From positions 62,001 to 126,000 of the forward strand of contig CAIXKE010000013.1 of assembly GCA_903919975.1 (NCBI GenBank): a stretch of 64,000 bases of DNA. Reading direction: 5' to 3'. The notes under the pieces are model-generated. The model was not told the origin of the DNA and made no database searches. It worked only from the letters and a program-made list of their open reading frames with translations. The stretch comes from Akkermansiaceae bacterium. Its GTDB lineage: Bacteria; Verrucomicrobiota; Verrucomicrobiia; Verrucomicrobiales; Akkermansiaceae. Below, in pieces: positions 1 to 18,200 of this stretch (positions are counted from its first letter, which is position 1; every line of letters starts with the position of its first letter). The translations under genes and the position numbers were made by a program.

Positions 1-264
1 ACCGCGTGAGCCGCTTAAGAGGCCGGGAGATTATTACTTTATGCGATAGATTGCCTAAATAGCAAAGCGCGCCCGACTCACTCGAAACCGGAATGGCCGT
101 CATGGATGATCCGCTATCAGCATTATACAAACTTCACTCCCACAGCAGGCGGCCATCGATTCCCGCGTATTTCGAAACCACATTGTTGGCACGAAGCCGC
201 TCAACCGCAATTTCCCATCTCACCAACACACCAACACATCGCCTGCAGAATCAATCGAAATGTT

Positions 265-501
265 CTAAGCGGTAATCATGTTAGGAAGAGTCTTGTTCTC
301 ACGGGCTTCCCAGCGGACCCCGCCGTCAGCGGAATCATAACACAGAATCCGCAAATCACGGCCCGAGTCATCTGTCCGAAAATAGCCTCCTGCCACCACG
401 ATCTCATTTCCCAGAGAATCCGTGCCTGCCGCCAGAGACAACAACACCCCGCCCCCCTCGCGGATGTCCGACCAAAGCAGCGGCGCCTGATTTCTCCGCC
501 A
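265..501 (-). pseudogene. Beta-propeller (PQQ/SBBP-like) repeat remnant
   Basis: A minus-strand reading frame of about 78 codons runs between a stop at 502-504 and a stop at 265-267. Its translation contains the pattern GNEIVVAGGY, then a D-R-D-L stretch, then CYDSADGGVRWEAREN. This resembles the repeat of secreted beta-propeller proteins (VVTG..., then D-x-YDAxxGxxxWExRxN). Only about one repeat is present, with no signal peptide, no convincing start (GTG at 447 is the first possible one) and no neighbouring repeats. I read it as the remnant of a larger gene. The match is to a repeat pattern recalled from family knowledge, not to an alignment. Confidence 0.35.
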
Positions 502-893
502 CTAAAAAATCAGGCAGTATGAAAGCACCCGACACCCCGAAAAACTCTCATGCATCCGCAGATACATCCGGAACGCCTCGCCTTCTCTCGACACATTCGT
601 ATTTGGAATCGCGAAAAACACAACGGTGCTCACTGCTTCAAAAATCCTGCAAGAGTTTAAAGATTCGAGCTCAAGCATCGCGCTTCACGTTGCGATAGAG
701 ATGAATAAGGATGACTATTTGCAATTCTACGCTGGCAAAACCACCAATTCGGGCAGGGACGTGGTCATCCAGTCACACCCCCCTGTTTGCCCTCGGCATG
801 GATTGAACCAAAGCACCCGGTGACCGGGCGTGATACCCCACCAAGTTAACATTTATTTGGGGCTGATCCTTCGCCTCGTGCCGCTCCCCACGA

Positions 894-943
894 CGCACTG
901 CTGCTCACTCCAAGAAGCCGCACTGCTGCTCACTCCAAGAAGC
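894..943. repeat. Perfect 25-bp tandem duplication
   Basis: The 25-bp unit beginning CGCACTGCTGCTCACTCCAA occurs twice back to back, at 894-918 and 919-943, with no mismatch. It lies in non-coding sequence. Identity over the full 25 bp indicates a recent slippage or duplication event. No function is evident. Confidence 0.9.
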
Positions 944-1126
944 GCACGAATGTGTCCGTCGATGGCCATGAGAAGCCAATGAGGTAAGCGGTTCGCTTTC
1001 CATTGTCTCCTCATAGCTAGGGCGAACATGTTTCGCTCCTTCTTATGTCAAATAGATGTCTACCAAGATAGGCTCAGACATCCTGACGCGCCGGAAAATG
1101 GGATGACCTGCCGAATGAAATGGCAT

Positions 1127-1171
1127 CGGGCGAAGACGCCCGCGCCACAGTGGCCCGGGCGTCTCAGCCCG
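1127..1171. repeat. Hairpin-forming inverted repeat (GGGCG...CGCCC type)
   Basis: CGGGCGAAGACGCCCG at 1127-1142 pairs with CGGGCGTCTCAGCCCG at 1156-1171 (14 of 16 positions), separated by 13 bases. It lies just past the stop of the minus-strand gene ending at 1185. It could act as a 3'-end stabiliser or terminator-like element, although there is no T-run. The sequence style (cgaagacgcccg... / cgggcgtctcagcccgg) suggests a dispersed intergenic repeat, but only one copy is visible here. Confidence 0.55.
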
Positions 1172-1184
1172 GAGTCTAATGGGG

Positions 1185-1673
1185 TCACGCGATTTCAGGG
1201 ATATTGCCTGGAAGTCCGGCTGAATCCAGCGCTCCGTGAGAGTTGCTATTTGCCCGGCGCGGGGTGGCCCAGTGGTCGACGGAACTGTTCACGAGAAACT
1301 CGGTGCCGAGGGCTTCGCGGCCGAGCAACATGCGGTGGATCATGCGTTTCCGACAGACGAGGCTGACAACGATCCGCTTTTCCACTTCCGCAAGGCGCAG
1401 GGTGGTTTCGATAAAAATCCGGCTGACTCCTTGGCCGGTGCTGCTGCGGACGTGTTTGCGGAGTTTGATCGGTTCCTCCAGCGTGACGAGTCGCTTGTCT
1501 TTGCGGTCAAGGCGGACGGTGAATCGCACGCGGTTGCCGGGCAGCTCATGTATCTCTGCGCAATCGATCGCGCTGCTGCGGGCGCCGGTATCCGCCTTGG
1601 CGCGCATTTTGAGCGACCACTCGGGGAATTCGACCCACTCCCGCCAGCCGATGATTTGTTTGGCGTCGTGCAT
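1185..1673 (-). CDS. Retropepsin-like (RimK-associated 'Zn_protease' family) protein
   Basis: This 162-residue protein belongs to the family first named ATP-dependent zinc protease (Pfam Zn_protease), whose members often travel with RimK-type ligases and are now viewed as retropepsin-like aspartic proteases. The key sequence is KADTGARSSAI, with the D-T-G-A catalytic-loop-like motif at residues 28-31. It is followed by the conserved downstream block RKRMIHRMLLGREAL around residues 108-122. The length matches the family. The last 20 or so residues after FLVN are less conserved in style. The gene starts 15 bp after the stop of the HlyD-like gene, so the two are probably cotranscribed. No rimK gene is present in the window. 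The substrate is unknown. Confidence 0.8.
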   Translation of the reverse strand: MHDAKQIIGWREWVEFPEWSLKMRAKADTGARSSAIDCAEIHELPGNRVRFTVRLDRKDKRLVTLEEPIKLRKHVRSSTGQGVSRIFIETTLRLAEVEKRIVVSLVCRKRMIHRMLLGREALGTEFLVNSSVDHWATPRRANSNSHGALDSAGLPGNIPEIA

Positions 1674-1688
1674 CGTGGTGGTTTTCCG

Positions 1689-3101
1689 TTAGGGGGCAAG
1701 GATGACTTGGCCGGTTTCGAGGCCGTCTAGGATTTCGGTGTCGTCGCCGGAGACCCGGCCGCGTTTGATGGGGCGGCGTTCGGTTTTGCCGTCGGCGAGT
1801 TTGATCTCCGCGGTCCAGCCGCGTGAGTCGTGGGCGAGCGCCTTGGTGGGGATGACGATAGCGGCGGGTTTCTGATAGGAAATGAGGTGGACTTTTACCG
1901 TAGCTCCGACGGCAGGCTTGGGGTCGGCGGGCCAAGTGGCGGAAAGGTGAGCGCGGTAGCTGCCGTCCGGCTCGGGAATGCCGGCGAGCTGGGTGAGTTT
2001 CACGGGAAATTCAATGTCTTCACGGCCGGGAAATGTGGCGGTGCCGGCGAGGTCGGGTGCCAGCAAACGGGCGGTGGTTTCCGCGGGAAAGGCGACGATG
2101 GCGAGCGGCGCGCTGGCTGGTATGAAGGTGGCGAAGGGCCTGCGGACGGGCGGGCGGCCATTTTTAACGAGATTTTTGATGGCGTCGCCGGTAGTCCAGC
2201 GGCCGTTTTGGATCGTCCCGTGATAGAACCAGCCATCGGCGGGGGCTTTGAATTCACAGAGCTTACGATCGAGTTCGAGATCGGCGAGGGTTTGTTGTTC
2301 GCGTGCTTGGCCGGTTTTGAGGGACTCGAGCTCCAGTTTTCTGCGCTCGAGGGAACGGGGGATTTCCTTTTCGGCGGAACCGATGGCGATGGCGGTGTCG
2401 CGCTCGCTGTCGGCAAGGGTGAGGGCTTCGCGGGGCAGGGCGACTTTGAGGTTGTATTGGTTGTTGAGTGTTTCCATGCGCAGGGCGAACTCGGCGGAGA
2501 TCACGCTGTCTTTTTGGCGGGTGAGAATGATTTCTTCGGTCTCCTCGGTCGCATCGGTGAGATCATCCGTTTGATACATTTTGCTGAGTTGCCGAAGTTC
2601 CTCCTGTTGGTTCGAGAGTTGTTGTTTGCTGCGCTCCAGCCTTTGATGGGCGGTCTCCTCTTGGGCCTTGCGGCGAGTGGCAGTGAAGTATGCATGCTCC
2701 TCCTTGGCGATCTGCGCGGCGCGGCGTGCGGCTGCGAGGCGGTGCGGCGCGGTCTCCACCAGCGATTTTAACTCTTGCTCCGCATGGGCCACGGCTAGGC
2801 TGCCGGCCGCGATGGAGCGACGGGTGTCCTCAAGCTTGCGGTCGATTCCAAGGGTGTCGAAACCCGCCAGCACGCCGCCTTTAGTGACCCTCGCACCGTG
2901 CGGGGCGATATTGATGAGTCGGAAATCCTCCCAAGCTTTGGCATCGACCTCAAACAGCAGAGCCTCGCCCTCAGGCATGACCGTGGCGTTGAAAGTTGCC
3001 TCGATGACGAAGGGCTTTTGCTCGATCGTAATCTCCCCCGCATGCAGGGTGACGGCGGCCAGCAAAGCAGGAAAACCAGAGGCAAGATAGGGGCGAAACA
3101 C
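1689..3101 (-). CDS. HlyD/RND-type periplasmic adaptor (membrane fusion) protein
   Basis: The 470-residue product begins with a hydrophobic signal peptide (cleavage probably near residue 21, after HAG). A short lipoyl-like half-motif follows (APHGARVTKGGVLAGFDT, about residues 67-84), then a long charged alpha-helical hairpin rich in K, E, Q and R (about residues 90-280). The second lipoyl half reads FKAPADGWFYHGTIQNGRW. The C-terminal beta-barrel and membrane-proximal domains contain VVIPTKALAHD-like and TEILDGLETGQVI sequences. This is the domain order of periplasmic adaptors of tripartite efflux or export systems. No inner-membrane pump or outer-membrane channel gene is adjacent, so the partner is unknown. 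It lies between the spermidine-synthase-like gene (56-bp gap) and the retropepsin-like gene (15-bp gap) on the same strand. Confidence 0.82.
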   Translation of the reverse strand: MFRPYLASGFPALLAAVTLHAGEITIEQKPFVIEATFNATVMPEGEALLFEVDAKAWEDFRLINIAPHGARVTKGGVLAGFDTLGIDRKLEDTRRSIAAGSLAVAHAEQELKSLVETAPHRLAAARRAAQIAKEEHAYFTATRRKAQEETAHQRLERSKQQLSNQQEELRQLSKMYQTDDLTDATEETEEIILTRQKDSVISAEFALRMETLNNQYNLKVALPREALTLADSERDTAIAIGSAEKEIPRSLERRKLELESLKTGQAREQQTLADLELDRKLCEFKAPADGWFYHGTIQNGRWTTGDAIKNLVKNGRPPVRRPFATFIPASAPLAIVAFPAETTARLLAPDLAGTATFPGREDIEFPVKLTQLAGIPEPDGSYRAHLSATWPADPKPAVGATVKVHLISYQKPAAIVIPTKALAHDSRGWTAEIKLADGKTERRPIKRGRVSGDDTEILDGLETGQVILAP

Positions 3102-3157
3102 GAACGGAACTTACGGTTTCAGCCGCTGATGGGAAGTGGAAATAAAGTCGTGCGAGT

Positions 3158-3835
3158 TCACTCGGCGGCGCGGCCTTTGCGGGCTAGCCAGATCGGGAGG
3201 AGCCGGGTTTTTTTCGCATCCGGGGAGGCGGGCACGGTGAATTCGGCCACTTCGAAACCCGAGCGCTGGAGATTGCGGGTGAGATTGGTCAGGTGGCGCG
3301 AGCCGGCAATGGCGAGCAGGCCCCCGGGTTGCAGCGCTTCATAAGCCGCGGAAACCCAGCGGCGGTCATCCACCCATGGCCGATTGCGCGGGCCGGTGGG
3401 TGAGGCATCCAAATGGAGAAGAATGGCGTGGAGCAAACCCGCATGCCGGATCAGGCCGGAGGGTCCGCAATCGCTTTCGAGCACCACCCGGGGATCCGTG
3501 AGCAGCGGGCTTTCCGGCAAATGCTGGCGATGCCACTCAGGCAGGGCGGCGAGCGGCTCCGCTACGATGAAGGTGCCGCGCTTTTGCTTCAACTCCGCCG
3601 ATACGGTGGCGAGTGAGTGGCCGAGGCCGAGACCGATGAAAAACAAGCTGGGCTGGCGGGCGGGACGGAATGGCGCGCAGGCGAGACGGGCAAGCTCCTC
3701 CTCCGCAGCACGGGTCGCTGGCCCGCAGATCTGTTGGCCATGGATGAGCAAGGACTTGCGGCCATCGTGTTCCTGAAGGGCGAGCGTGCTACCGTCGGGG
3801 AGCTGGGTTTCTGCGAGAGTGATTCTTGGTTTCAT
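3158..3835 (-). CDS. Spermidine-synthase-like (SAM-fold) protein
   Basis: This 225-residue protein resembles the C-terminal Rossmann domain of spermidine synthase-type proteins. LFFIGLGLGHSLATVSAEL (about residues 65-83) fits the nucleotide-binding glycine loop, and FIVAEPLAALPEW fits the acidic strand that follows it. ALQPGGLLAIAGSR fits the later beta strand. The residues that bind putrescine in true spermidine synthases are not recognisable (HAILLHLD stands where a catalytic Asp-rich loop would be). It is therefore more likely a divergent methyltransferase-fold protein than a polyamine enzyme. It is the first gene of a minus-strand group with the HlyD-like and retropepsin-like genes, and is divergent from the TM2 gene across a 38-bp gap. 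Confidence 0.6.
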   Translation of the reverse strand: MKPRITLAETQLPDGSTLALQEHDGRKSLLIHGQQICGPATRAAEEELARLACAPFRPARQPSLFFIGLGLGHSLATVSAELKQKRGTFIVAEPLAALPEWHRQHLPESPLLTDPRVVLESDCGPSGLIRHAGLLHAILLHLDASPTGPRNRPWVDDRRWVSAAYEALQPGGLLAIAGSRHLTNLTRNLQRSGFEVAEFTVPASPDAKKTRLLPIWLARKGRAAE

Positions 3836-3873
3836 GAGGCTTGGGGCTTGTCTTGCCGGGAGGGATGTATTAG

Positions 3874-4149
3874 ATGCGAGGCACTATGTCCACAGAACCT
3901 GTAACTCCGCCGCCCGCAGGGGCCGAAAAAAAACTCATCGCCGGCCTCCTAGGGATTCTTCTCGGATGGACGGGGGCTCATAAATTCGTCCTTGGCTATA
4001 CCAAGGAGGGTGTCATCCAGCTGATTGCCAGCCTGGCGACATGCGGATTATTCGGGATCGTCGGTCTGATCGAAGGCATCATCTATTTGACCAAGAGCGA
4101 CCAGGAATTCGTGGCGACTTATGTGACCGGCCGTAAGGGCTGGTTCTGA
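3874..4149 (+). CDS. TM2 domain membrane protein
   Basis: The 91-residue protein carries one TM2 domain: a first membrane helix around residues 27-43 (LIAGLLGILLGWTGAHKFVLG) and a second around 50-72 (LIASLATCGLFGIVGLIEGI). The G-x-H-K/R-F-x-L-G motif joins them. Family members are small inner-membrane proteins of unknown biochemical role. A good ribosome binding site (GGGAGGG, 3858-3864) sits 9 bases before the ATG at 3874. A second in-frame ATG at 3886 is possible but worse placed. The gene ends just before a strong terminator shared with the convergent HU gene. Confidence 0.85.
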   Translation: MRGTMSTEPVTPPPAGAEKKLIAGLLGILLGWTGAHKFVLGYTKEGVIQLIASLATCGLFGIVGLIEGIIYLTKSDQEFVATYVTGRKGWF

Positions 4150-4177
4150 TTTCCCCTCAAAAAACAAATTTTTCATG

Positions 4178-4212
4178 AAAAAACCCCGGCCATGAGTGGC
4201 CGGGGTTTTTTT
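4178..4212. terminator. Bidirectional intrinsic terminator between TM2 gene and hupB
   Basis: CCCCGGCCA at 4184-4192 pairs perfectly with TGGCCGGGG at 4197-4205 around a TGAG loop. It is flanked by an A-run on the left and a seven-T run on the right. This structure can terminate both the plus-strand TM2 gene and the minus-strand HU gene, which converge on it. Confidence 0.92.
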
Positions 4213-4256
4213 GGGGGTTGATAGTTGAAGACGTGGGGACCGGAGTCCCCGGCTCA

Positions 4257-4532
4257 TCAGAGCGAGCCCTTAAGGACGGAGGATGGCTTGAAGCCGACCG
4301 ACTTGGAGGCGGCGATCTTCATGGATTCTCCAGTCTTCGGGTTGCGACCGGTGCGAGCGGCGCGATTTTTCACCTCGAAAGTGCCGAATCCAATGATTTG
4401 GACTTTCTGGTCCTTCTTCACGCCATTGGCGATTGAGGAGAGAACGGCTTCGAGGGCCTCGTCTGCGGCGCGTTTGGTTGCGTCTTTTCCGAGGGCGGCT
4501 TGGATGGCTTCAATAAGTTCGGCTTTGTTCAT
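4257..4532 (-). CDS. hup: Histone-like DNA-binding protein HU
   Basis: This 91-residue protein matches the usual length of HU (about 90). It opens with MNKAELIEAI, the typical N-terminal helix. It carries the signature GFGTFEVKNRAARTGRNPKTG (about residues 48-68), which forms the DNA-embracing beta arm, and ends with the helix that follows FKPSSVLK. HU bends and compacts DNA as a dimer. It could be an IHF-like subunit, but the arm sequence and single copy fit HU. The region upstream of the ATG is pyrimidine-rich (TTTCCCCTGCC) and lacks a purine-rich ribosome binding site. The gene is divergent from the YiiX-like gene and ends at a strong terminator. Confidence 0.95.
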   Translation of the reverse strand: MNKAELIEAIQAALGKDATKRAADEALEAVLSSIANGVKKDQKVQIIGFGTFEVKNRAARTGRNPKTGESMKIAASKSVGFKPSSVLKGSL

Positions 4533-4753
4533 GGCAGGGGAAACATCAGCGGATGGGGGATGGGGTTGGCAAGCGAAAAACCGTTGAATTTACAGGGTTT
4601 TTTCAAACTGGCGGCTTGACTCCGCCGCGCGGGGGGGATCGAGGGCCTGAATTTTTCGGGTCCGGCGAGGGTGCACGCCGAATTGTTAGTGATTGTTAGA
4701 TCGCCGGTGGCCGTGGCGGCATCCGTCGGCGAGGTTGACGCGGCGAGGTGATT

Positions 4754-5709
4754 ATGGGAGAAGCGCGTGGTTTGGAATACGAGGAAATGGAAAAAATTCT
4801 GGCCCGCAGCGTGGCCGTGATGCTCGCGGCGTCGGGAGCGCTGCCGGGTCACGACGACTTGGGCGCGGAGCTGGCTTGTGTGACAGCGGCAGAGGCCCGT
4901 GGATATTTTCTGCCGGACGAGGAAGAGCTGAAATCCAAGCCCTGGCGGCGGATCCGGTGGTCGGGCCGGTGGTGGCGCTGCTGCTGACGGAAGAACCGGG
5001 GATCGAGCGGCGGCGGCGTGAGATGCTGAAGCAGATCGTTTCTTACCGGTGGCTCTCGTTTCTCCGGCGGAACCGGTCGGCATGGAAAAAGGTGATGTTC
5101 GGGTTTTTCGAGGCATCCGGACGCGCGGTCGCGGAGTTGCGACAGCCGGGCGTCAAACCGTCCAGAGCACCGAAACGGATTGCTGGGAAATTGCGTGAGG
5201 CGCTGCTAGCGCAGGTAAAGCCGGGCGATGTGTTCGTGACACGCCATGACGACGCGCTGAGCAATTTCTTCCTGCCGGGATTCTGGCCGCATGCGGCGCT
5301 CTACCTTGGGACGGCGGCGGAGTTGGAGCGCTTTGGCATCCGAGTGCCGCCCAGAGCGGTGGACAGGCCATGGTTTCTCGAATCCAAAAAAGACGCCGTC
5401 CGGATCCGGTCGGCGGAAGAGACGCTGCAAGTGGACGCGCTCGTAGTGCTAAGGCCACCGCTGCAGGAGGCGGATCTCGCGGAGGGCCTGCTGCGCGCGG
5501 CCAGCCACGAGGGGAAACCGTATGATTTCCTGTTCGATTTCCGAACCGCGGATCGGATGGTCTGCACGGAGGTGATTTATCGCGGATTTCACGGAATCCG
5601 GCCGGTGAGGTTTCATTTGCGCGAAGTGGGCAGGCGCCGATTCGTCCGATCCTGCAAAATTTTCATTAATTCATTAAAAGACCTTGCAGACATTCCAAGA
5701 GGTCATTAA
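4754..5709 (+). CDS. YiiX/YaeF-type papain-like hydrolase, apparently frameshifted
   Basis: The downstream two thirds encode a permuted papain-like amidase/peptidase of the YiiX-YaeF (C92) group. KPGDVFVTRHDDALSNFF, then FWPHAALYLG with the presumed catalytic His, and VCTEVIYRGF with the presumed catalytic Cys, match the family pattern. The N-terminus lies in another frame. A good start at ATG 4754 follows a GAGG (4745-4748) and gives a protein-like sequence ending RGYFLPDEEELKS, but that frame stops at 4985-4987. Sense resumes in the frame that ends at 5709, from about LAADPVV onward (near 4940). A shift of -1 (or +2) around 4930-4945 is therefore needed. I see no classic slippery heptamer there, so a sequencing error or a real inactivating mutation is more likely than programmed frameshifting. 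Confidence 0.7.
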
Positions 5710-5745
5710 AGACCCCGCGCCCGCAGCACGCAGGTATTTTCCGAC

Positions 5746-6624
5746 ATGATCCGTCGTCATCTCACTCTCACTTTGTTCGCTTGGCTCTCATGCCTTGGTT
5801 CCGCCTTCGCGTCTGAGGAGGGCGGTCATCATGCCTTGCCCCTAGATGCCCAACAGCTTTTCGGCCCGTTCACCAACTCCACGATCATGGTCTGGTTGGC
5901 GGTGGGATTGATCGTTCTGTTCTGCCAAGCGGCGACCCGCAAAATGGCGCTGATTCCTTCGGGTTTCCAAAACTTCGCCGAGTGGGTGTTCGAGTCACTC
6001 TATGATGTCCTCGGCGGTCTGATGGGCGAGCACCTGACCAAGCGGGTGTTCTGGTTCTTCGGATCGATTTTCTTCTTCATCCTCGTAAATAACTACATGG
6101 GCCTGATCCCAGGGGTGGGCACGATGGGTTGGAACACCTTAGATAGCCACGGAACTCACGGATTCACCCCGTTTCTCCGTGGTGCCAATGCCGACATCAA
6201 CATGACCGCCGCGATGGCCTTTTCCTTCGCGCTGCTCTGGTTCTATTGGGCCATCACCGAAAACGGCCTGAAAACCTTCCTCGCCCATATTTTCGCACCA
6301 AAGGGACATTTCCACGGCATCATGCTGGCGATGATGGTGCCGATCTTCCTGTTTGTCGGCGTTTTGGAAATGATCTCGATCGCGATTCGTCCGGTCGCTC
6401 TCACATTCCGTCTTTTCGGCAACATTTACGGCGGCGAACAAACGCTTGAGGCGCTGATGGCGCTGATCCCGAAAGCCTTGCAACCGTTTCTGTCCTGGCT
6501 TCCGGCCTTGCCATTTTATTTCATGGAATTGCTCGTCGGTTTCGTGCAAGCCCTCGTTTTTACCTTACTCTGCGCCATTTTCCTCAAGCTGATCTGCGAT
6601 CACGGAGAAGAAGAGCACCATTGA
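5746..6624 (+). CDS. atpB: ATP synthase F0 subunit a
   Basis: This 292-residue membrane protein forms the two half-channels for proton entry and exit next to the c-ring. The essential arginine is Arg222 in ALTFRLFGNIYGGE, the counterpart of the conserved LRLFGN motif. Several membrane helices are evident, including 47-62, 101-120, 152-170, 193-214 and 245-285. The first 22 residues look like a cleavable signal peptide (MIRRHLTLTLFAWLSCLGSAFA). It is the first gene of the atp operon. The leader just before the ATG shows no good Shine-Dalgarno sequence. Confidence 0.97.
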   Translation: MIRRHLTLTLFAWLSCLGSAFASEEGGHHALPLDAQQLFGPFTNSTIMVWLAVGLIVLFCQAATRKMALIPSGFQNFAEWVFESLYDVLGGLMGEHLTKRVFWFFGSIFFFILVNNYMGLIPGVGTMGWNTLDSHGTHGFTPFLRGANADINMTAAMAFSFALLWFYWAITENGLKTFLAHIFAPKGHFHGIMLAMMVPIFLFVGVLEMISIAIRPVALTFRLFGNIYGGEQTLEALMALIPKALQPFLSWLPALPFYFMELLVGFVQALVFTLLCAIFLKLICDHGEEEHH

Positions 6625-6701
6625 CCCCTTTCTGCGCTCTGACCATGGCATGACCGTGGGGGCCGCTGAAAAAACCACAACCAACACCAACACAACCAAC
6701 C

Positions 6702-6896
6702 ATGTTTACTAAAGCATTTGCAGTCGCCCTCGCCGCTCTCGGCGGTGGCATTGGCATCGGCCTCCTCGGCGCCAAAGCCGCTGAAGCCACCGGACGCAAT
6801 CCGGGTGCCGCCACTCCGATCCTGGTCATTTCGATCATTCTCGCCGCGCTCATCGAGGGTATCTTCATCCTCTCCGCGTTCGCCGTACCGTTCTGA
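6702..6896 (+). CDS. atpE: ATP synthase F0 subunit c (proteolipid)
   Basis: This 64-residue hairpin is on the short side for subunit c (usually 70-90). Helix 1 carries the packing motif GGGIGIG (residues 14-20). The polar loop contains GRNP (31-34), which contacts the F1 stalk. Helix 2 carries the ion-binding carboxylate Glu52 in AALIEGIF. The Gln in helix 1 and the Ser/Thr after the Glu that mark sodium-coupled rotors are absent, so proton coupling is likely. A strong terminator hairpin follows the stop codon by 9 bases, which may raise atpE transcript relative to downstream genes. Confidence 0.96.
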   Translation: MFTKAFAVALAALGGGIGIGLLGAKAAEATGRNPGAATPILVISIILAALIEGIFILSAFAVPF

Positions 6897-6905
6897 TTTA
6901 CTTAT

Positions 6906-6942
6906 TACCGCACGCGTCGGCTGACGCGTGCGGTAGTTTTTT
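6906..6942 (+). terminator. Intrinsic terminator hairpin between atpE and atpF
   Basis: TACCGCACGCGTC (6906-6918) pairs perfectly with GACGCGTGCGGTA (6923-6935) around a GGCT loop. A G and six T residues (6937-6942) follow. This is a textbook rho-independent terminator, but it lies inside the atp operon. It most likely acts as a partial terminator or 3'-end stabiliser that increases atpB-atpE transcript over the rest, since subunit c is needed in many copies. Confidence 0.88.
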
Positions 6943-6960
6943 CCGCTAATCTCTCCAGCC

Positions 6961-7518
6961 ATGATCTCCTTGCTTGCCTCCGCCACCGCCGAAGCCGTTA
7001 CCGCAAACCCCGGCATCCTTGAAACGATCCAGAAGACCTTTGGTCTCAACGGGCCGTTTTTCATCGCGCAGGTGATCAACTTCTTTGTCGTCATCTTCGT
7101 CCTCAAAAAATTCGCCTTCGGCCCGATCCAGGCGATGCTCGAACAACGCCGCATCCGCATCGCCGAGGGCGAGGAAAAGCTCAAGCGCATCGAGAAACAA
7201 CTCGCCGAATCCGAGCAAACGACCGCCGCCGCGATAGGCAAAGCCAACGACGAAGCCGTCCGCCTGATCAACGAGGCGAAAGAAGGCGCCCACGCCTTCA
7301 GCGAACAAAAATCCCAAGAAGCCATCGCCATGGCTCAAAACATCCTCGCGAAAGCCGAAACCGCCGCCAAAGCGGACCGCGACCGCCTCAGCTCCGAACT
7401 CAAACGCGAATTCGGCCGCCTCGTCGCCGCCACCACCGCCCAAGTCACCGGCAAAGTGCTCACCGCAGATGACCAAAAACGCATCAACGAGGACGCCCTC
7501 GCCAAGGTCGAAGCTTGA
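6961..7518 (+). CDS. atpF: ATP synthase F0 subunit b
   Basis: This 185-residue subunit b is the peripheral stalk. A short periplasmic N-terminus is followed by one membrane helix (about residues 33-50, FFIAQVINFFVVIFVLKKF). A long, highly charged helix follows, rich in A, E, K and R, that dimerises and binds subunit delta. The motif ...KFAFGPIQAMLEQRR after the membrane helix is typical. The start is not preceded by a purine-rich site (leader TCTCTCCAGCC). It begins 18 bases downstream of the internal terminator hairpin. Confidence 0.95.
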   Translation: MISLLASATAEAVTANPGILETIQKTFGLNGPFFIAQVINFFVVIFVLKKFAFGPIQAMLEQRRIRIAEGEEKLKRIEKQLAESEQTTAAAIGKANDEAVRLINEAKEGAHAFSEQKSQEAIAMAQNILAKAETAAKADRDRLSSELKREFGRLVAATTAQVTGKVLTADDQKRINEDALAKVEA

Positions 7519-7542
7519 TTTGCAGCATTCATTTTCCGCCTC

Positions 7543-7935
7543 ATGAAAATCTCCAAAGTCGCCGCCACCACCGCACGCCGCTTGTTCGGGCTCTGCCAGA
7601 CCAACGGCCGCTTGGATGATGCGAAATTGCGCACGGTGGTTTCCCGTTTGGTGGAATCCAAACCACGCGACTACGCCGGCATTCTTTCCGCTCTCCAACG
7701 CCTGACGCGCCTCGACCTCGAGCGCCGCAAAGTGACCGTCGAAAGCGCGGTGGAACTCGATGAAGCCACCCGCCAGCGTGTCGTCGCCGGCCTCGCGAAA
7801 CAATACGGCCCCGATCTCGTCGCCCAATACCAAGTCAATCCCGCCCTCCTCGGCGGCCTTCGCATCCGCGTCGGCAACGATGTGTTCGACGGCTCGGTCC
7901 AAGGCCGCCTCGACCGCCTCACCAACGCCTTCTGA
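7543..7935 (+). CDS. atpH: ATP synthase F1 subunit delta (short form)
   Basis: This 130-residue protein sits in the standard atpH position between atpF and atpA. Its C-terminal half has the expected delta sequence, with QYGPDLVAQYQVNPALLGGLRIRVGN ending in the conserved GG-x-x-I-R-V-G/D strand and DGSVQGRLDRL. Typical delta subunits have about 175-180 residues, so the N-terminal helical domain that caps the alpha subunits is about 45 residues shorter than usual. No in-frame upstream extension is available, because the atpF stop is 24 bases away. It appears to be a genuine short form and not a misplaced start. Confidence 0.88.
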   Translation: MKISKVAATTARRLFGLCQTNGRLDDAKLRTVVSRLVESKPRDYAGILSALQRLTRLDLERRKVTVESAVELDEATRQRVVAGLAKQYGPDLVAQYQVNPALLGGLRIRVGNDVFDGSVQGRLDRLTNAF

Positions 7936-7987
7936 TTTCATTCTTTGCTGAAAACTTAACTCCGATAACTAGCAAACTCCTTTCCCC

Positions 7988-9529
<1,542 letters not shown>

Positions 9530-9534
9530 AAAAC

Positions 9535-9627
9535 GGACATTAGGGATTAGACATTCGATATTGGGTCAATGCCCGCCTCGTCTTCCCCTAATTATCAAAT
9601 CTCCAATTATCCAATCTCCTAAATCTT
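9535..9627. repeat. Heptad-periodic inverted repeat in the atpA-atpG gap
   Basis: The left arm at about 9535-9567 (GGACATTAGGGATTAGACAT, then TCGATATTGGG) has a roughly 7-base period. The right arm at about 9586-9627 (CCTAATTATCAAATCTCCAA, then TTATCCAATCTCC) has the same period and is broadly complementary to the left. The spacer is about 18 bases. The right arm runs to within about 7 bases of the atpG GTG start. Pairing is imperfect, so I call it by period and symmetry and not as a perfect stem. Confidence 0.6.
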
Positions 9628-9633
9628 AAAACA

Positions 9634-10527
9634 GTGGCCAACCTACGCGACATCCGCCGGCGCATCAAATCCGTCAAGAACACCGCGCAAATCACCCGCG
9701 CGATGCAGCTTGTGGCCGCCGCGAAGATGAAGAAAGCGCAGGACCAGGCGCTCGCCGGCCGCGAATACGCCGCGCATCTCACGCAGGTGTTGTTTGATAT
9801 CCGCAAAAACTTCACCGAAGAATCCCACCCATTCCTGGTGCACCGCGAAGGTGGCCGCGAACTGGTGCTGGTGATCTCCACCGATAAAGGCCTTTGCGGC
9901 GCGCTCAACACCAACCTTGCGAAATCCATCAAGGCGCATACCTCGCCGGACGCCCACTTTGTCACGGTCGGCCGTAAACTCCGCACCTTGTGCGAAAAAC
10001 TCGGCAAGAAAGTCATCGCGGATTTCACGGTTAAAGATCCGGTCCCATTCTCCCAAACCCGGCCGATCGCCAAGTTCATCAGCCAACAATTCCTCGATGG
10101 AAACTATGACAAGGTCTCCATCGCCTTCACCAGTTTCGTCAACACGATGCGCCAGGAATCGGAAGTGGTCACACTCCTGCCGATCCAAGGCCACCGCGAA
10201 GGTGAGGAACAGGCCTTCGAATCCATCGGCAGCGGCTTCTCCGTGGAAGAGCACATCAAGGATGCATTCCGCGATTACACTTTCGAGCCGAATGCCTCCG
10301 AGGTTCTCGCCTCGATCCTGCCCCTCTACATCAACTACGAGGTCTTCCAAGCCCACGTCGAGTCCCGCGCCTCCGAGCACTCCGCACGGATGGTCGCCAT
10401 GAAGTCCGCCACCGACAACGCGAACAAGTTCATCAAGGAACTCACCCTCGAATACAACAAACTCCGCCAAGGCGCCATCACCGCCGAACTCCTCGAAATC
10501 ACCACCGCCATGAAGGCCATGGAGTAA
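9634..10527 (+). CDS. atpG: ATP synthase F1 subunit gamma
   Basis: This 297-residue central-stalk subunit begins with ANLRDIRRRIKSVKNTAQIT, the conserved N-terminal helix, and ends with the conserved C-terminal helix (NKLRQGAITAELLEITTAMKA). ISTDKGLCGALNTN around residues 79-92 is the family signature. Start is GTG at 9634; no ATG is available in the conserved position. The region before it is part of a heptad-repeat arm and has no Shine-Dalgarno sequence. Confidence 0.97.
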   Translation: MANLRDIRRRIKSVKNTAQITRAMQLVAAAKMKKAQDQALAGREYAAHLTQVLFDIRKNFTEESHPFLVHREGGRELVLVISTDKGLCGALNTNLAKSIKAHTSPDAHFVTVGRKLRTLCEKLGKKVIADFTVKDPVPFSQTRPIAKFISQQFLDGNYDKVSIAFTSFVNTMRQESEVVTLLPIQGHREGEEQAFESIGSGFSVEEHIKDAFRDYTFEPNASEVLASILPLYINYEVFQAHVESRASEHSARMVAMKSATDNANKFIKELTLEYNKLRQGAITAELLEITTAMKAME

Positions 10528-10533
10528 AGTGCC

Positions 10534-12118
<1,585 letters not shown>

Positions 12119-12123
12119 ATCGA

Positions 12124-12206
12124 TTGTTGAATTTTGAATGATGAATGTTGAATTAGAAGAGCTTCATCCCATTCAAAATTCAAAATTTAAAATTCAAAAT
12201 TGATCA
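12124..12206. repeat. TTGAATT/ATTCAAA heptad inverted repeat in the atpD-atpC gap
   Basis: The left arm (about 12124-12155) contains TTGAATT-TTGAATG-ATGAATG-TTGAATT in exact 7-base register. The right arm (about 12171-12204) contains ATTCAAA-ATTCAAA-ATTTAAA-ATTCAAA in the complementary register. Arms are separated by about 15 bases and can form a long AT-rich hairpin. The right arm ends a few bases before the atpC ATG at 12209, so the ribosome landing site would be inside or next to the stem. Confidence 0.88.
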
Positions 12207-12208
12207 CC

Positions 12209-12619
12209 ATGCCTCTCCAACTTGATATCGTCACTCCCGAGAAAAAGGTTTTCTCGGATAACGTGGACAACGTCTATCTTCCCGGAGCGGATGGTGAAAT
12301 CGGCGTCTTGCCGATGCACGCCGGCCTCGTGACTGCGCTCAAACCCGGCGAACTGCGCTACCTACACAACGGCCAAGTCGTCACCCTCGCCATTGGCTCC
12401 GGCTTCGCCGAAGTCACACAAACTAAAGTCGTCGTCCTAACCGACATGGCCTTGGGCGAAGCGGAGATCGACGAACAAAGCGCCGAGGAAGCCATCCAAC
12501 GCGCGCAGGAAAAACTCGCCGTCGTCGAGCACAGCATGGATGCCGAGGAAGTCGCCTATCTGCAAGGTGTCATCTCAAAGTCCGCGGCTGCCATTCAGTT
12601 CAAACGGAAACACCGCTGA
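12209..12619 (+). CDS. atpC: ATP synthase F1 subunit epsilon
   Basis: This 136-residue subunit of the rotor has the N-terminal beta-sandwich (PLQLDIVTPEKKVFSDNVDN, then PGADGEIGVLPMHAGLVTAL) and a C-terminal helical hairpin region (AEEAIQRAQEKL). I chose the ATG at 12209 over the in-frame TTG at 12200, because family proteins begin right at this point. It closes the atp operon. Confidence 0.95.
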   Translation: MPLQLDIVTPEKKVFSDNVDNVYLPGADGEIGVLPMHAGLVTALKPGELRYLHNGQVVTLAIGSGFAEVTQTKVVVLTDMALGEAEIDEQSAEEAIQRAQEKLAVVEHSMDAEEVAYLQGVISKSAAAIQFKRKHR

Positions 12620-12854
12620 TACGAGTCGCAAGGAGGGGCGAAGCGCGTTCGCCCTCGTGTATTTGGTGACAACGAGCTGGGCTGATGCGCTTTCCATGGG
12701 CACCCCATGCGCACGGCGGACATGATCCGCCGCTCTTTGTCTTTCTTGTCCTGCGCCCATCTCACGCGGCCTGCTCCGCATTTTCTGGCAAATTACGGTC
12801 GATTTTCCTCTTCTGTTTGCTAAGTTACAAGAGATTCACTTCCTTAGTTACGCC
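12620..12854. other. atpC-pckG gap with three small hairpins
   Basis: The gap contains GGGCGAA/TTCGCCC (12636-12642 with 12648-12654), CATGGG/CCCATG (12695-12700 with 12704-12709) and GGCGGA/TCCGCC (12715-12720 with 12726-12731). The first may end the atp transcript, although it is not followed by a T-run. I see no convincing promoter consensus for pckG, and its ATG has no Shine-Dalgarno sequence. Confidence 0.45.
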
Positions 12855-14693
12855 ATGAGCAAACCACACACATCCCACGCCACTCTTCAGAAATGGGTGA
12901 CAGATATGACCGCCCTCTGCACGCCCGACTCCGTCGAGTGGTGCGACGGCTCACAAGCCGAATGGGACCGCCTTACTTCCTTGATGGTTGAAAAAGGCAC
13001 CTTCACCCGCCTCAACCCCGAGATACGCCCTAATTCTTTCCTCGCCCGCTCGACTCCTTCGGATGTCGCCCGTGTCGAGGACCGCACGTTCATCTGTTCC
13101 AAGCGCAAGGACCAGGCCGGCCCGACCAATCACTGGGCTGATCCCGCCGAAATGCGCGTCACCTTGAATGGAAAATTCAAAGGCTCGATGAAAGGCCGCA
13201 CCATGTATGTAATCCCATTCTGCATGGGCCCACTTGATTCGCCGCTCGCCAAAATCGGCATCGAACTCAGCGATAGCCCTTACGTCGTCGTCAACATGCG
13301 CATCATGACCCACATGGGCTCACATGTCCTTAAGCGCCTTGAGGATGAGGCCGATGGCAAGATTGATAAGAAACGTGATGGCTACGGAAATTTCATCCCC
13401 TGCCTTCACTCGGTGGGCGCTCCGTTAGAGCCCGGACAAAAGGATGTCACCTGGCCCTGCAGTGATGACAAATACATCGTTCATTTCCCGGAAACCCGCG
13501 AAATCATGTCGTTCGGCTCAGGCTATGGCGGAAACGCACTGCTCGGTAAAAAGTGCCTTGCGCTACGCATCGCTTCTAACATCGCCCGCGAACACAAATG
13601 GATGGCCGAGCACATGCTCATCGTCGGCGTGGAAAATCCCAAGGGCGAGAAGACTTATCTATCGGTCGCCTTCCCGTCTGCCTGTGGCAAGACCAACCTC
13701 GCCATGCTCATTCCACCCCAAGCCTATCAGGATGCCGGCTGGAAAACCACTATCATCGGTGATGACATTGCATGGCTCTGGCCGCACGAGGATGGCAAAC
13801 TCCACGCCATCAACCCGGAAACCGGTTACTTCGGTGTCGCTCCAGGCACCGCCTACACCACCAACCCGCGCGCAATGGAATCCATCACGGAAAACTGCAT
13901 CTTCACCAACGTCGGCCTAACCGATGATGGCGATGTCTGGTGGGAAGGCATGGACGGTGAGCCACCCGCCCACGCCATCGATTGGACCGGCAAGGATTGG
14001 ACGCCCGATTGCGACCGCGTCTGCGCCCACGCCAACTCCCGCTTCACCGCGCCCGCCAGTCAGTGCCCGTCAGTTGACGAAAACTGGCAGAACCCCGACG
14101 GCGTGCCCATCGATGGCATCGTTTTCGGCGGCCGTCGCGCTACCACCATGCCGCTGGTGTTCCAAGCCTTCAACTGGAGCCACGGCGTCTATCTCGGCGC
14201 CACAATGGGCTCGGAAATGACCGCCGCCGCCTTCGGCCAGATCGGCAAAGTCCGCCGCGATCCAATGGCCATGCTGCCATTCTGCGGCTACAACATGGGC
14301 GAATATTTCGGCCACTGGCTGGAAATGCGCCGCTACCTCACCCACCTGCCGCGCTTCTTCCACGTCAACTGGTTCCGTAAGGACGAGGCTGGCAAATGGC
14401 TGTGGCCCGGTTTCGGCGAAAACATGCGCGTCCTCGAGTGGATCGTGAAACGTTGCCACGGCAGTGCCGCCGGCCACGAAACACAAATCGGCTGGACCCC
14501 GGCCTTCGAGGATTTCAACATCGTCGGCTTGGATGGCTTTACCGAAGAAAACTTCAACAAAGTCATGGCCTTCAACCGCACCGAGTGGAAAGCCGAGCTG
14601 GTCAGCCAAGGCGAGTTCTTCATCGATCTCTACGATCATATGCCCAAGGAGCTCATCTTCCAACGGGAGTTGCTTGCCGCGCGCATGTCCTGA
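12855..14693 (+). CDS. pckG: Phosphoenolpyruvate carboxykinase (GTP)
   Basis: This 612-residue enzyme interconverts oxaloacetate and PEP using GTP/GDP, at the branch between the TCA cycle and gluconeogenesis. The GTP-type P-loop with its reactive cysteine is PSACGKT at residues 274-280. The metal-binding GDDIAW follows at 302-307. Other GTP-class blocks are [11 protein letters not shown] near residue 91, [15 protein letters not shown] near 220 and the R-N-x-T-like [13 protein letters not shown]. Length and motifs distinguish it from the shorter ATP-dependent class. It appears to be monocistronic. Confidence 0.97.
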
Positions 14694-14755
14694 TCTCACT
14701 GAAATCCTAAACCACACCACAACGCCGTCCGCATGCTCGCCATGCGCGCGGTTTT

Positions 14756-14959
14756 GTGCTAACCGAATTGGTCGGCTACACCTTGGTCGAGAACCGCCGC
14801 GCCGCCAACTGGATGCGCGATTGCGGCGGCAATGGCGATTGGGACGGTTACAAACTGGCCTTCCGCTGGCAACTCGCCGATCTCGACAGCCTCCCGGAAG
14901 CCCCCGCCGCCACCGACCTAGCGACATGGCTCGCCCACCTCTCACCACGCCTGCTCTGA
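14756..14959 (+). CDS. Possible small or remnant protein
   Basis: A 67-codon frame starts at GTG 14756 and has a protein-like composition (VGYTLVENRRAANWMRDCGG, then DWDGYKLAFRWQLADLD). I do not recognise a family. There is no in-frame ATG and no ribosome binding site, and the preceding codons look non-coding. It may be the C-terminal stub of a lost gene or a chance frame. Confidence 0.25.
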   Translation: MLTELVGYTLVENRRAANWMRDCGGNGDWDGYKLAFRWQLADLDSLPEAPAATDLATWLAHLSPRLL

Positions 14960-14971
14960 ACGCGCGCGCCA

Positions 14972-15090
14972 CGGAGCGCCGACATTCTGTCGGCTGTCGG
15001 CGAGGGGACATTCTGTCACCCATCTTCCGCGAAGCGACTCGCCGGACAGTATGTCCGTCATCCAGCAGCGCGCAGAATGCACGCGCTCCG
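14972..15090. repeat. Nested palindromic intergenic element
   Basis: Outer arms CGGAGCG (14972-14978) and CGCTCCG (15084-15090) enclose two tight hairpins. One is GCCGACA-TTC-TGTCGGC (14978-14994); the other is CGGACA-GTA-TGTCCG (15043-15057). GACATTCTGTC also recurs at 14981-14991 and 15007-15017. The layered symmetry suggests a mobile or RNA-structured intergenic repeat. Only this copy is visible. Confidence 0.6.
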
Positions 15091-15196
15091 ACAAGTCGAA
15101 TCCTTAAAGGCATAGGGCTTCAGCCGGCGTGTCCCTGAAACGCGAATTGAACCGCTTCTCTTTTAATATCCCGATCGTTTCGGAAAAACTTACCAT

Positions 15197-15231
15197 CATG
15201 GAATTTCCCGACGGACTAGGGAAATTCCATG
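15197..15231. promoter_or_regulatory. Perfect 13-bp inverted repeat upstream of the alpha-2-macroglobulin gene
   Basis: CATGGAATTTCCC (15197-15209) is the exact complement of GGGAAATTCCATG (15219-15231), with a 9-base spacer. It sits 55 bases before the proposed ATG at 15286. It could be an operator for a dimeric regulator or, since TTCATTTTT follows, a terminator for upstream transcription. The sequence alone does not decide between them. Confidence 0.65.
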
Positions 15232-15285
15232 TTCATTTTTGAATTATCAGTTATATTGTGCGCCCGGCCTACAGCCATGCTTGTT

Positions 15286-18200
15286 ATGAAAACACAGAAA
15301 CTCGCCGCTACGGCCTTGATGGCCATCACCATGGCCGCTTCCGCCGCTCCCCGCCTCGTCGTTTCCACCCCGTCACTGGTGCCAGAATCCAAGATCGACC
15401 TCGTGCTCGACCTGCCCGTCACCCCTACCACCGAACTCGGCAAAACCGTCGAAAATTCCTGGCTCGAAATCAAACCCGCCCTCCCCGGCAAACTGCGCTG
15501 GAAAGCCCAAAACATCGCGGAGTTTCTCCCGGACCAATGCCCCGTCATCGGCGCAACGTATGCGTTCTCCATCCCGAAAAACCGCAAACACCTCGACAAT
15601 TCAGCGGTCCCTGCCGGCCAATTCGCCACGCTTGCCGCCGAAGAATTCCGCATCGTTTCGAGTTCCGTCCCCAACCGCTGGAACTCCGGTTATTCGCCCT
15701 CCACCGGCGAATGGATTCTTGTTTTCAATGATGATATCGATCCCGCCACCGCAGGCTCGTTCATTTCCTTCGTCTCAAAATCCGGCCAACGAGTCGCCGC
15801 CCACATCGAACGCGCCAGCGCGGAACGCACAGGCGAACTCGCCAACAACTACAAATCCTGGACCGCCCGCTGGGGAAGCACGCCAGCCACCGATGCTCTC
15901 GCCCGCAACATCCTAGTCGCCCGTCCGCTCACCCCCTTGCCGCCCGGCGAAAATTGGCGCATCTCAACTCTCAAGGGCTTACCTAACACTTCCGCCACCG
16001 CCCGCCTCACCGAAGAGACGCATTACGACATCGGCAGCATCGAGCCGTTTCAAATCCGCAAAATCGCCAGCCATGTCGTAGCCGACGAACCGCGCCGGAT
16101 TTCAATCACTTTCAACCACCCACTTCCCGAGGAACTTCCCACCGATTTCCTCACCAAATTCCTCAGCATCGTCCCGTCCCCCGGAAATCTAACCGCAGAG
16201 TCCGACGGACAAACCATCCAACTTTCCGGCGACCTGTTCGCTGCAGACCAATACTCGGTCACCATCCGACCCGGCATCGTTTCCAGAATCGGCTTCCCTC
16301 TCAAAAACGGCATCACCGAGAAAGTCGTATTCGAACACCTCGATCCGCTCATTGCCCTACCCTCCGAAGACGTCGGCCAACTGGCTAAAGGCACCCGCCA
16401 ATACCGCGTTCTAACGCAGAACCTCGCCAACGCCCAAATCCGCATCAAGAAACTCAGCGGCCAAGACCTCGTCCGCGCGTTTCAGGGATACCGCAACGTC
16501 ACAGGCAACGGCCCCGACAACGAATCCATCCGCCGCACCGCTCCGCTCCCGTGGTCCATGGTCGTCGGCACCAGCCTTGCTAATCAGGAAATCCCGCTCG
16601 GAAACCCCATCGACACCACGAAAATCATCACCCTCAACTGGAATGAAATCCTGCCCAAGGACATCCAAACCGGCGTCCTATTTCTGGAAGCCTCCGGCCA
16701 AGCACACAAAGACACCCAAAGCAGCGGCCGTCCACTGACCCAAGCCATCATTCAACTCACCGACATCGGCCTCGCCTGGAAACTCACGTCTAAGGAAGCC
16801 TTTATCTATGCCTTTTCCTGCGATACCGGAGCCCCTCTCCCCGGCGTGAAACTCCAACTCTTCGGCGAGGATGCCACCGCCCTTGAGCAAGCCGCCACCG
16901 ATGCCTCAGGCCTCGCCACCTTGCCGCGTCTGAAAACCGCCCGCCACCTCGTCGCTACGCGCGAGAATGACACCTACATCACCGCATTTGATAGCACACT
17001 TGAAACCGTCGGCCTCTGGCATTTCCCGGTCCGTTATGCGTGGAACACCCCAGCCGAATCCTCCCGTCAGGCCTTCCTTTTCACCGATCGCTCACTCTAC
17101 CGCCCCGGTGAAACCATCCGCCTCAAAGGCATCCTCCGCGCCCTCCACGGCAATGCCGTCGAACCCTCAAAATCCAGCACCGCGCGCATCGTCATCATCG
17201 ATCCCACCGAAAAAGAAATCCTCAACCAGCCGGTCACAATCTCACCTAACGGATCGTTCGATTTCACCCACAAACTCGCCCCGGTCAAAACCGGCGCCCA
17301 CTCGATCCGGCTGGAATTCCCCGACGAACTCGCCGCCGCAGAGGCCATCGAGGACAACTGGAGCAAACGCGAACAAATCCTTGAAAGCGCCCGTTTCGAA
17401 ATCCCACTGCGTGTCGAAGAATTCCGCCGCAATGCCTTTGAAATCACTCAGCGCATCCCCCCGCCACAGATCGGCGCCACCACTGTCACCGCCGAACTCT
17501 CCGCAAAATACTATCAGGGACAACCCGTCGCCGCAGGCACTGTAAAACACTTCAGCCGGATCACCACCCAGAATCCCTATCCGGAACGTTTCCGCGATTT
17601 CCTCTTCGGCAATCACCGCAGCGATGACTGGGGTTATTGGTATCACTATTTCGGCTATCAAGATGACGAGGGCGATTCGACTACCCACACGTCCCAACTC
17701 CTCGGAGAAGCCCAATTAGCAACCGATGGCAGCGCTATCATCCCTATCGAAATCCCGCAGGCGGATTTCCCCCAACCGCGGGAAGTCGAAATCGCCTCGG
17801 AAGTCACCGATGCAAACAACCAGACGCTTACCGCCCGGACCACCACCACGGTTCATCCGACGTCCGCCTATGTCGGCATCTCGCGCATCGACCGCCTCGC
17901 CCGCGTCGGCGAAGCCCTGCCGCTCCGCATCGTCGCCATCGATCCCTCGGAAAAACCCTTCAGGCATGAACTCAAACTCACCGCCACCCTCACCCGCGAA
18001 CTGAACTCCGCCACCAAAACCCGCAATGATTCCGGAGAAACGACCACCCGCAATGACCTAACCGAGGAAACGATCGCCACCGAGGAAATCATCCTCAATC
18101 CCATGGCTTCGGAAAAAGACGGACAACTCTACACCATCACGCCGAAGTCCAACGGTCTGCACTTCCTCACCCTCCGCGGCACCGATCCCGATGGCCACCC

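Follow-up and report, generated by a model that had tools for sequence, protein, structure and literature searches.

The atpE gene, which encodes the c subunit of ATP synthase, is flanked by two conserved RNA structures in the Akkermansiaceae genome considered here and in many of its Verrucomicrobiota relatives: a bulged hairpin RNA in the atpB–atpE gap and a strong hairpin of variable sequence just past the atpE stop codon. Both are conserved in position and both show covariation. Together, they probably raise the output of the c subunit, the many-copy component of the enzyme. ATP synthase contains many c subunits per a subunit, each gene is usually present in a single copy, and how the ratio is controlled is an old question.

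The atp Operon in the Window

The window, i.e., the whole stretch of 64,000 nucleotides that was analysed, contains an F-type ATP synthase operon from atpB through atpC. The first three genes, all on the forward strand, are atpB (subunit a, 5746–6624), atpE (subunit c, 64 amino acids, 6702–6896), and atpF (subunit b, 6961–7518); they are followed by atpH (7543–7935), atpA (7988–9529), atpG (9634–10527), atpD (10655–12118), and atpC, which ends at 12619. All of these are open reading frames named from the alignment of relatives and from general knowledge; the relatives align with atpB and atpF, and atpE was matched in 56 of the 59 genomes searched (the own genome and its relatives). The nearest named loci belong to Akkermansiaceae, with an AtpE identity of 98% to one of them (L056). 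The operon is surrounded by reading frames that presumably encode an HU-type DNA-binding protein (4257–4532, reverse strand), a YiiX/NlpC-like amidase (4693–5709, forward strand), and a GTP-dependent PEP carboxykinase (12855–14693, forward strand).

The Hairpin Downstream of atpE

The hairpin (6906–6935, forward strand) consists of two 13-nt arms, 6906–6918 and 6923–6935, which are 100% complementary and enclose a 4-nt GGCU loop. Two additional weak pairs between 6904–6905 and 6936–6937 bring the total to 15, and a single G separates the perfect stem from a T6 tract (6937–6942, forward strand). The stem begins 10 nt past the atpE stop, ahead of the atpF start at 6961. The region 6890–6960 folds with −28.1 kcal/mol compared with a mean of −14.11 (sd 2.71) for shuffled sequences, which corresponds to z = −5.16, and none of 200 shuffles was equally good. 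Among 24 terminator-like sites between 3000 and 16000, this hairpin ranks first, having the most pairs and the most G–C pairs. The preliminary description of this DNA had reported a perfect 13-bp stem, a tetraloop, and a T6 tract after the subunit c gene, and all three are exactly there.

Conservation was studied in 55 loci obtained by genome search (own genome, same genus, same order) and 80 named loci, which gave 125 distinct loci after removal of duplicates (L001, L036, L057, L058, L067, and L075) and of loci lacking a match to the window AtpE at an E-value of 0.01 (L040, L044, L048, L051, and L055); one genome, G025, is absent from the loci taken. The hairpin is nevertheless visible by eye in four of the loci left out (L040, L044, L048, and L055), while in L051 the contig ends there. 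When the 70 nt from each stop codon were folded and compared with dinucleotide shuffles, z was below −2 after atpE in 107 of 123 loci and after atpB in 64 of 124. The corresponding counts are 4/118 for atpF, 3/119 for atpH, 5/68 for atpA, 3/64 for atpG, 10/64 for atpD, and 29/54 for atpC, i.e., the operon end; in mid-gene controls, the same cutoff was passed by 3 to 6 loci per gene (n = 64 to 124) and by 12/67 for atpA.

A single hairpin of −12 kcal/mol or lower follows atpE in 115 of 124 Verrucomicrobiota loci, with a median energy of −24 kcal/mol and a median start 10 nt past the stop, so that the proposal to look for it in the same gap of relatives, made in the preliminary description, has been strongly borne out. 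Such hairpins are rare at the remaining junctions within the operon, being found after atpB in 3/124, atpF in 2/116, atpH in 1/119, atpA in 9/68, atpG in 5/65, and atpD in 8/61 loci, and at the operon end in 35/54. In an alignment of the window with 12 near relatives (A3, from which L013 was left out), 94.2% of the hairpin cells are paired, compared with at most 55.5% in slid versions, and 10 of the 13 pairs show changes on both sides, compared with 2.6 in shuffles; hence, the stem is maintained while its sequence varies.

Beyond these loci, only folding energies without shuffles were computed. In 19 of 20 fresh loci from the same family, the fold of the 78 nt that begin at the atpE stop reaches −20 kcal/mol or lower, the exception being L261 (−10.6 kcal/mol). 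Two loci from another family, L157 and L158, gave −10.2 and −14.5 kcal/mol, and 4 of 10 loci from other classes (L169, L170, L174, and L176) reached −20 kcal/mol or lower within up to 90 nt, a compact GC-rich hairpin being visible by eye only in L169.

A perfect palindrome of 14 pairs with a 4-nt loop is also present at 12094–12125, where it overlaps the atpD stop codon. The idea that hairpins follow every many-copy subunit (alpha, beta, and c) was rejected on the above z counts for atpA and atpD, whose ends are mostly unstructured in relatives, and the palindrome at the atpD end of the window is therefore not a feature of the class.

Does the Hairpin Terminate Transcription?

The preliminary description saw a textbook terminator in this structure. 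The corresponding reading is that of a partial intrinsic terminator, where some RNA polymerase would stop at T6 and yield extra atpB–atpE mRNA; we regard it as possible but doubtful. On this reading, transcription in the relatives would end at U-tracts that are weak or displaced. The perfect stem and T6 of the window are just what such a reading expects, and T-rich tails recur in some near relatives (7 T in the next 8 nt in L002 and 6 each in L011, L012, and L014). Nevertheless, at least 5 T in the next 8 nt were found after only 21 of the 115 conserved hairpins, and a run of at least 5 T within 12 nt after 17 of the 115.

The operon end after atpC served as a comparison, with only hairpins of −15 kcal/mol or lower taken for positional counts. 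T occupies positions 1–5 past the stem less frequently after atpE (197/568, 0.35) than at the operon end (73/135, 0.54; Fisher p = 4.9e-5), the first five positions after atpE hairpins being C-rich and G-poor. At positions 6–10, T is enriched over the whole atpE set (0.45 compared with 0.30 at the operon end), which suits a displaced tract. Directly past the atpE stem, T is about as frequent as elsewhere in the gap, which is not the case past operon-end hairpins. The number of T in 8 nt, taken alone, differs little between the two sets (means 3.16 after atpE and 3.26 at the operon end; 21/115 and 10/35 loci). What is conserved is a hairpin followed by a pyrimidine-rich tail, and the clean T6 of the window is a minority form. 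Because the U-tract is not conserved, the term “terminator” is more apt for this species than for the element shared by the relatives: the GC-rich hairpin and T6 of the preliminary description hold for the window, while the U-tract is missing or displaced in most relatives. Judged by its sequence, T6 may contribute some partial termination here, and the link that was drawn between the hairpin and extra c subunit remains sensible.

The 3′ ends of RNase P and SRP RNAs were also considered as a yardstick for terminators and abandoned because too few have a downstream hairpin. Among the 42 of 60 loci (L177–L236) with both flanks complete, a hairpin of −10 kcal/mol or lower within 90 nt follows RNase P RNA in 7/25 cases and SRP RNA in 1/17, and for this reason the operon end was used instead. 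The RNase P and SRP transcripts of this clade may perhaps be ended in some other way.

A Conserved Structured RNA Upstream of atpE

The second structure, which the preliminary description does not mention, was noticed by side-by-side reading of the atpB–atpE gaps. In the window, it occupies 6625–6671 on the forward strand and is matched by our covariance model R1 with 49.9 bits (cmsearch). It comprises, on the same strand, the P1 arms at about 6632–6639 and 6661–6668, an NGA bulge (6640–6642), the P2 arms (6643–6648 and 6654–6659), and a loop (6649–6653). The structure was derived from alignment A2 of 94 of the 124 gaps, where near-identical cores, odd lengths, L103, and L121 were left out. 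P1 has eight pairs and P2 six, the bulge between them is asymmetric, the loop is variable, and the single base facing the bulge is a purine in 91 of the 94 sequences.

In A2, 89.8% of the cells are paired (66.3% in shuffles) and 323 cells are doubly changed, whereas shuffles give 116.1 (sd 10.5) and sliding the partner gives no more than 97. The cells paired, the doubly changed cells, the pair types, and the covariation score all exceed every one of 500 shuffles. Pairs with at least one double change (12/14) are not in excess, the shuffles averaging 11.4 and reaching this value in 240 of 500 cases, so that the case for covariation is carried by the share of paired cells and by the doubly changed cells rather than by the pair count. 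RNAalifold without constraints returned the same core with 12 pairs. The bulge has an invariant G and an invariant A (93/93 sequences with letters there), and a U·G wobble in P2 is kept in 92/93. Covariation beyond both shuffled and slid controls marks this element as a conserved structured RNA.

The median distance from the atpB stop to the start of the motif is 1 nt, and that from the end of the motif to the first in-frame ATG of atpE is 30 nt. Taken by itself, the window sequence folds as drawn, with two mismatched positions of P1 in the drawn register, and the fold is not exceptional (z = −1.08); the case for the upstream RNA is thus a comparative one. Single-hairpin energies miss the element (3/124 at −12 kcal/mol against 64/124 with z < −2 for the 70-nt fold) because the bulge interrupts it.

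Between the upstream RNA and the start codon lies a leader (6672–6701, forward strand) that is A/C-rich, unstructured, and devoid of a Shine–Dalgarno-like sequence, as judged from its sequence and fold and from class-wide composition and openness. Among the relatives, the 30 nt before atpE have an A content of 0.43, compared with 0.19–0.32 before the other six genes scored, and a Shine–Dalgarno-like tetramer is rare there (9/124); in this count, the atpE start was placed by alignment to the window, which in some loci puts it too far downstream. When the first in-frame ATG is used instead, atpE has the most open start among the seven genes scored, the margin being modest (0.73 unpaired versus 0.60–0.67).

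A leader peptide beginning at a conserved RUG of the upstream RNA was considered and rejected since the loop length varies in steps that are not divisible by three and the short frames are lost in other loci. In Akkermansia glycaniphila (L124, 8377–8423), the RNA lies inside the atpB frame, which stops beyond it, and the RNA is retained though apparently coding.

Distribution and Co-Occurrence of the Two Structures

R1 matches all 55 order-level loci and, besides the window, 74 of the 80 named loci, and two further matches that lie elsewhere are weak (E 0.1 and 0.66); as many of the matched sequences went into R1 or closely resemble those that did, the counts cannot be taken as independent of the model. 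The misses are L065, L080, L089, L100, L111, and L121. Of these, L111 is truncated at the motif, and L065, L080, and L089 are rows of A2 missed by the very model built from it, L089 being plainly misaligned.

A coarse scan of the phylum, in which about 31 candidates per genome were scored under strict filters, found R1 at an E-value of 0.01 in only 36 of 193 genomes (12 of 19 in the same family). Of the 37 matches, 27 were examined at the locus, and 23 of these lie between atpB and atpE; the four elsewhere are weak (26–33 bits, L241–L244). Eight of the other ten are directly upstream of an atpE match. In a fresh set of 20 more loci from the same family, chosen by atpE position alone, R1 matched 11 at an E-value of 0.01 and 13 at 0.1; four of these genomes had been missed in the phylum scan, and two of them were now matched (L247 and L250). 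The seven loci without a match show the same layout by eye with an altered P2, e.g., UCAUG/CGUGA, a variant that R1 misses in L248, L249, L251, L252, and L253 of the same family. Consequently, the motif is broader than R1, and the counts are lower bounds where such variants occur.

A wider set comprised E. coli and 20 loci drawn from other families and classes. Four of these loci are matched by R1 (L162–L165), and by eye a variant was recognized in L166 and, less surely, in L160. No R1 match was obtained in the loci of another family (f8, L157–L159), in the reduced genome L161, in ten loci from other classes (L167–L176), or in E. coli. Variants with an insertion within the P2 hairpin were seen in L103, L121, L165, and L166.

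Both structures are present in 108 of 124 loci when a hairpin of −15 kcal/mol or lower starting within 45 nt is counted and L111, whose contig begins at the motif, is left out; 11 loci have the upstream RNA alone, 4 the hairpin alone, and 1 neither. The two parts are hence not inseparable, given the 11 loci where the upstream RNA lacks a qualifying hairpin, some of which carry a stem that is longer or lies farther away. A strong hairpin after atpE is missing in L109, L116, L120, L122, L123, and L125, all of which keep the upstream RNA; three of them are named Chthoniobacterales.

Relation to Known Systems

The known RNA nearest in kind is ATPC (RF01067), a conserved RNA that lies between the genes for the a and c subunits of ATP synthase in cyanobacteria. 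The site is the same as that of the upstream RNA, but the host phylum differs, and ATPC has 92 model positions whereas the upstream RNA has 47. Rfam release 15 gave no match at either structure in positions 1–20000 of the window at the gathering score, none in 5700–7100 at E-values up to 5 (RF01067 included), and none at the motif in eight relatives at E-values up to 1. RF01067 found no match in 20 genomes, the own one included, a result that is weak alone as no control genome matched either. Among the papers listed by full-text searches, no title or opening of an abstract describes the motif, an earlier report in other surveys of RNA motifs being possible, and motif-related terms are absent from the main text of a 2010 survey of 104 candidate structured RNAs (PMC2864571). 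One listed paper, which deals with Na+ riboswitches (PMC9337991), refers to Verrucomicrobia as well as to ATP synthase. The upstream RNA is apparently so far undescribed.

In E. coli, an open A-rich stretch upstream of atpE acts as an enhancer and raises translation of the c subunit. This initiation region resembles the open leader described here, yet the 3.2-kb E. coli locus, unlike those of the Verrucomicrobiota, contains no match to R1, and its atpE–atpF gap folds to −15.6 kcal/mol via A/U-rich pairs and not via a GC-rich hairpin. Intercistronic hairpins that set unequal expression inside operons are known from puf and malEFG, where, similarly, a hairpin follows a many-copy gene within the operon and the upstream message is stabilized. 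What differs here is that the arrangement is widespread across a class at the c gene and includes a second, sequence-conserved RNA upstream.

A parallel is found in chloroplasts. As stated in a 2024 review (PMC11124002), PPR10 protects the 5′ end of the message for the c subunit, there called atpH, and also activates its translation, BFA2 stabilizes the atpH/F mRNA at the 3′ end, and the stoichiometry of bacterial ATP synthase is attributed to mRNA stability and translation rate. The c-subunit message is thus specially protected at both ends in chloroplasts, as proposed here for Verrucomicrobiota, with the difference that the ends are held by proteins in the former, whereas in the latter folded RNAs stand at both ends of atpE.

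A Possible Role of the Two Structures

Structures on both sides of atpE, together with an open leader, are the pattern expected of a stabler and better-translated message. We give an even chance to the explanation that atpE is an RNA-bracketed cistron, whose cut or ended mRNA is protected and whose leader is well translated, with more c subunit as the outcome. The 5′ half of the bracket would be the bulged hairpin about 1 nt past the atpB stop, followed by the open A/C-rich leader, and the 3′ half the strong, sequence-variable hairpin about 10 nt past the atpE stop. The polycistronic atp mRNA would be cut, or ended, outside both structures, which would then protect both ends of the atpE segment against ribonucleases, while the open leader would load ribosomes well; more c subunit would be made per operon transcript than of the neighbours' products. 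RNase E/G is encoded in all 20 genomes searched, the own one included. An RNase E-like RNWUU site upstream of P1 occurs in only 62 of 94 sequences, and in many of them its UUU is able to pair with the 3′ side, so that it may not be a single-stranded cutting site; for both reasons, the cutting step is one that we infer. The invariant GA bulge and the near-invariant U·G suggest, from sequence conservation, a specific binding partner of the hairpin.

The same features, along with the conserved P2 sequence, give the upstream RNA the look of a recognition site rather than that of a mere roadblock, and it sits close to the atpE start. It might accordingly be the site of a regulator, either a protein or a small molecule, controlling atpE translation, with the 3′ hairpin as a spacer against ribosome coupling into atpF. 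This seems to us quite improbable, since the leader and the start codon of the window are outside the structure and atpE starts are generally open, so that no sequestration switch is visible; besides, the strong 3′ hairpin exceeds the needs of a spacer. Finally, GC-rich intergenic palindromes are common in some genomes, but an origin of the 3′ hairpin by chance or as a dispersed palindromic repeat has a negligible probability given its z-score, its single location in the 3.8-Mb genome, its recurrence at the same position in 115 of 124 loci, and the double changes that keep its pairing among near relatives.

Bracketing of atpE, partial termination, and translational control can act together. 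More specifically, and tentatively, in a large part of the class Verrucomicrobiae an RNA-binding protein or nuclease might read the 5′ hairpin and, with the 3′ hairpin, excise and protect a separate c-subunit mRNA, a proposal that we consider less likely to be right than wrong. If true, it would amount to an undescribed RNA system dedicated to the stoichiometry of ATP synthase, corresponding in bacteria to the PPR10/BFA2 pair of chloroplasts.

A large bacterial group, with gut Akkermansia among its loci, flanks the c gene with two RNA structures. The upstream RNA is a promising candidate for a new RNA family that has a binding partner of its own, and the question of the c-subunit ratio becomes testable with a few mutants.
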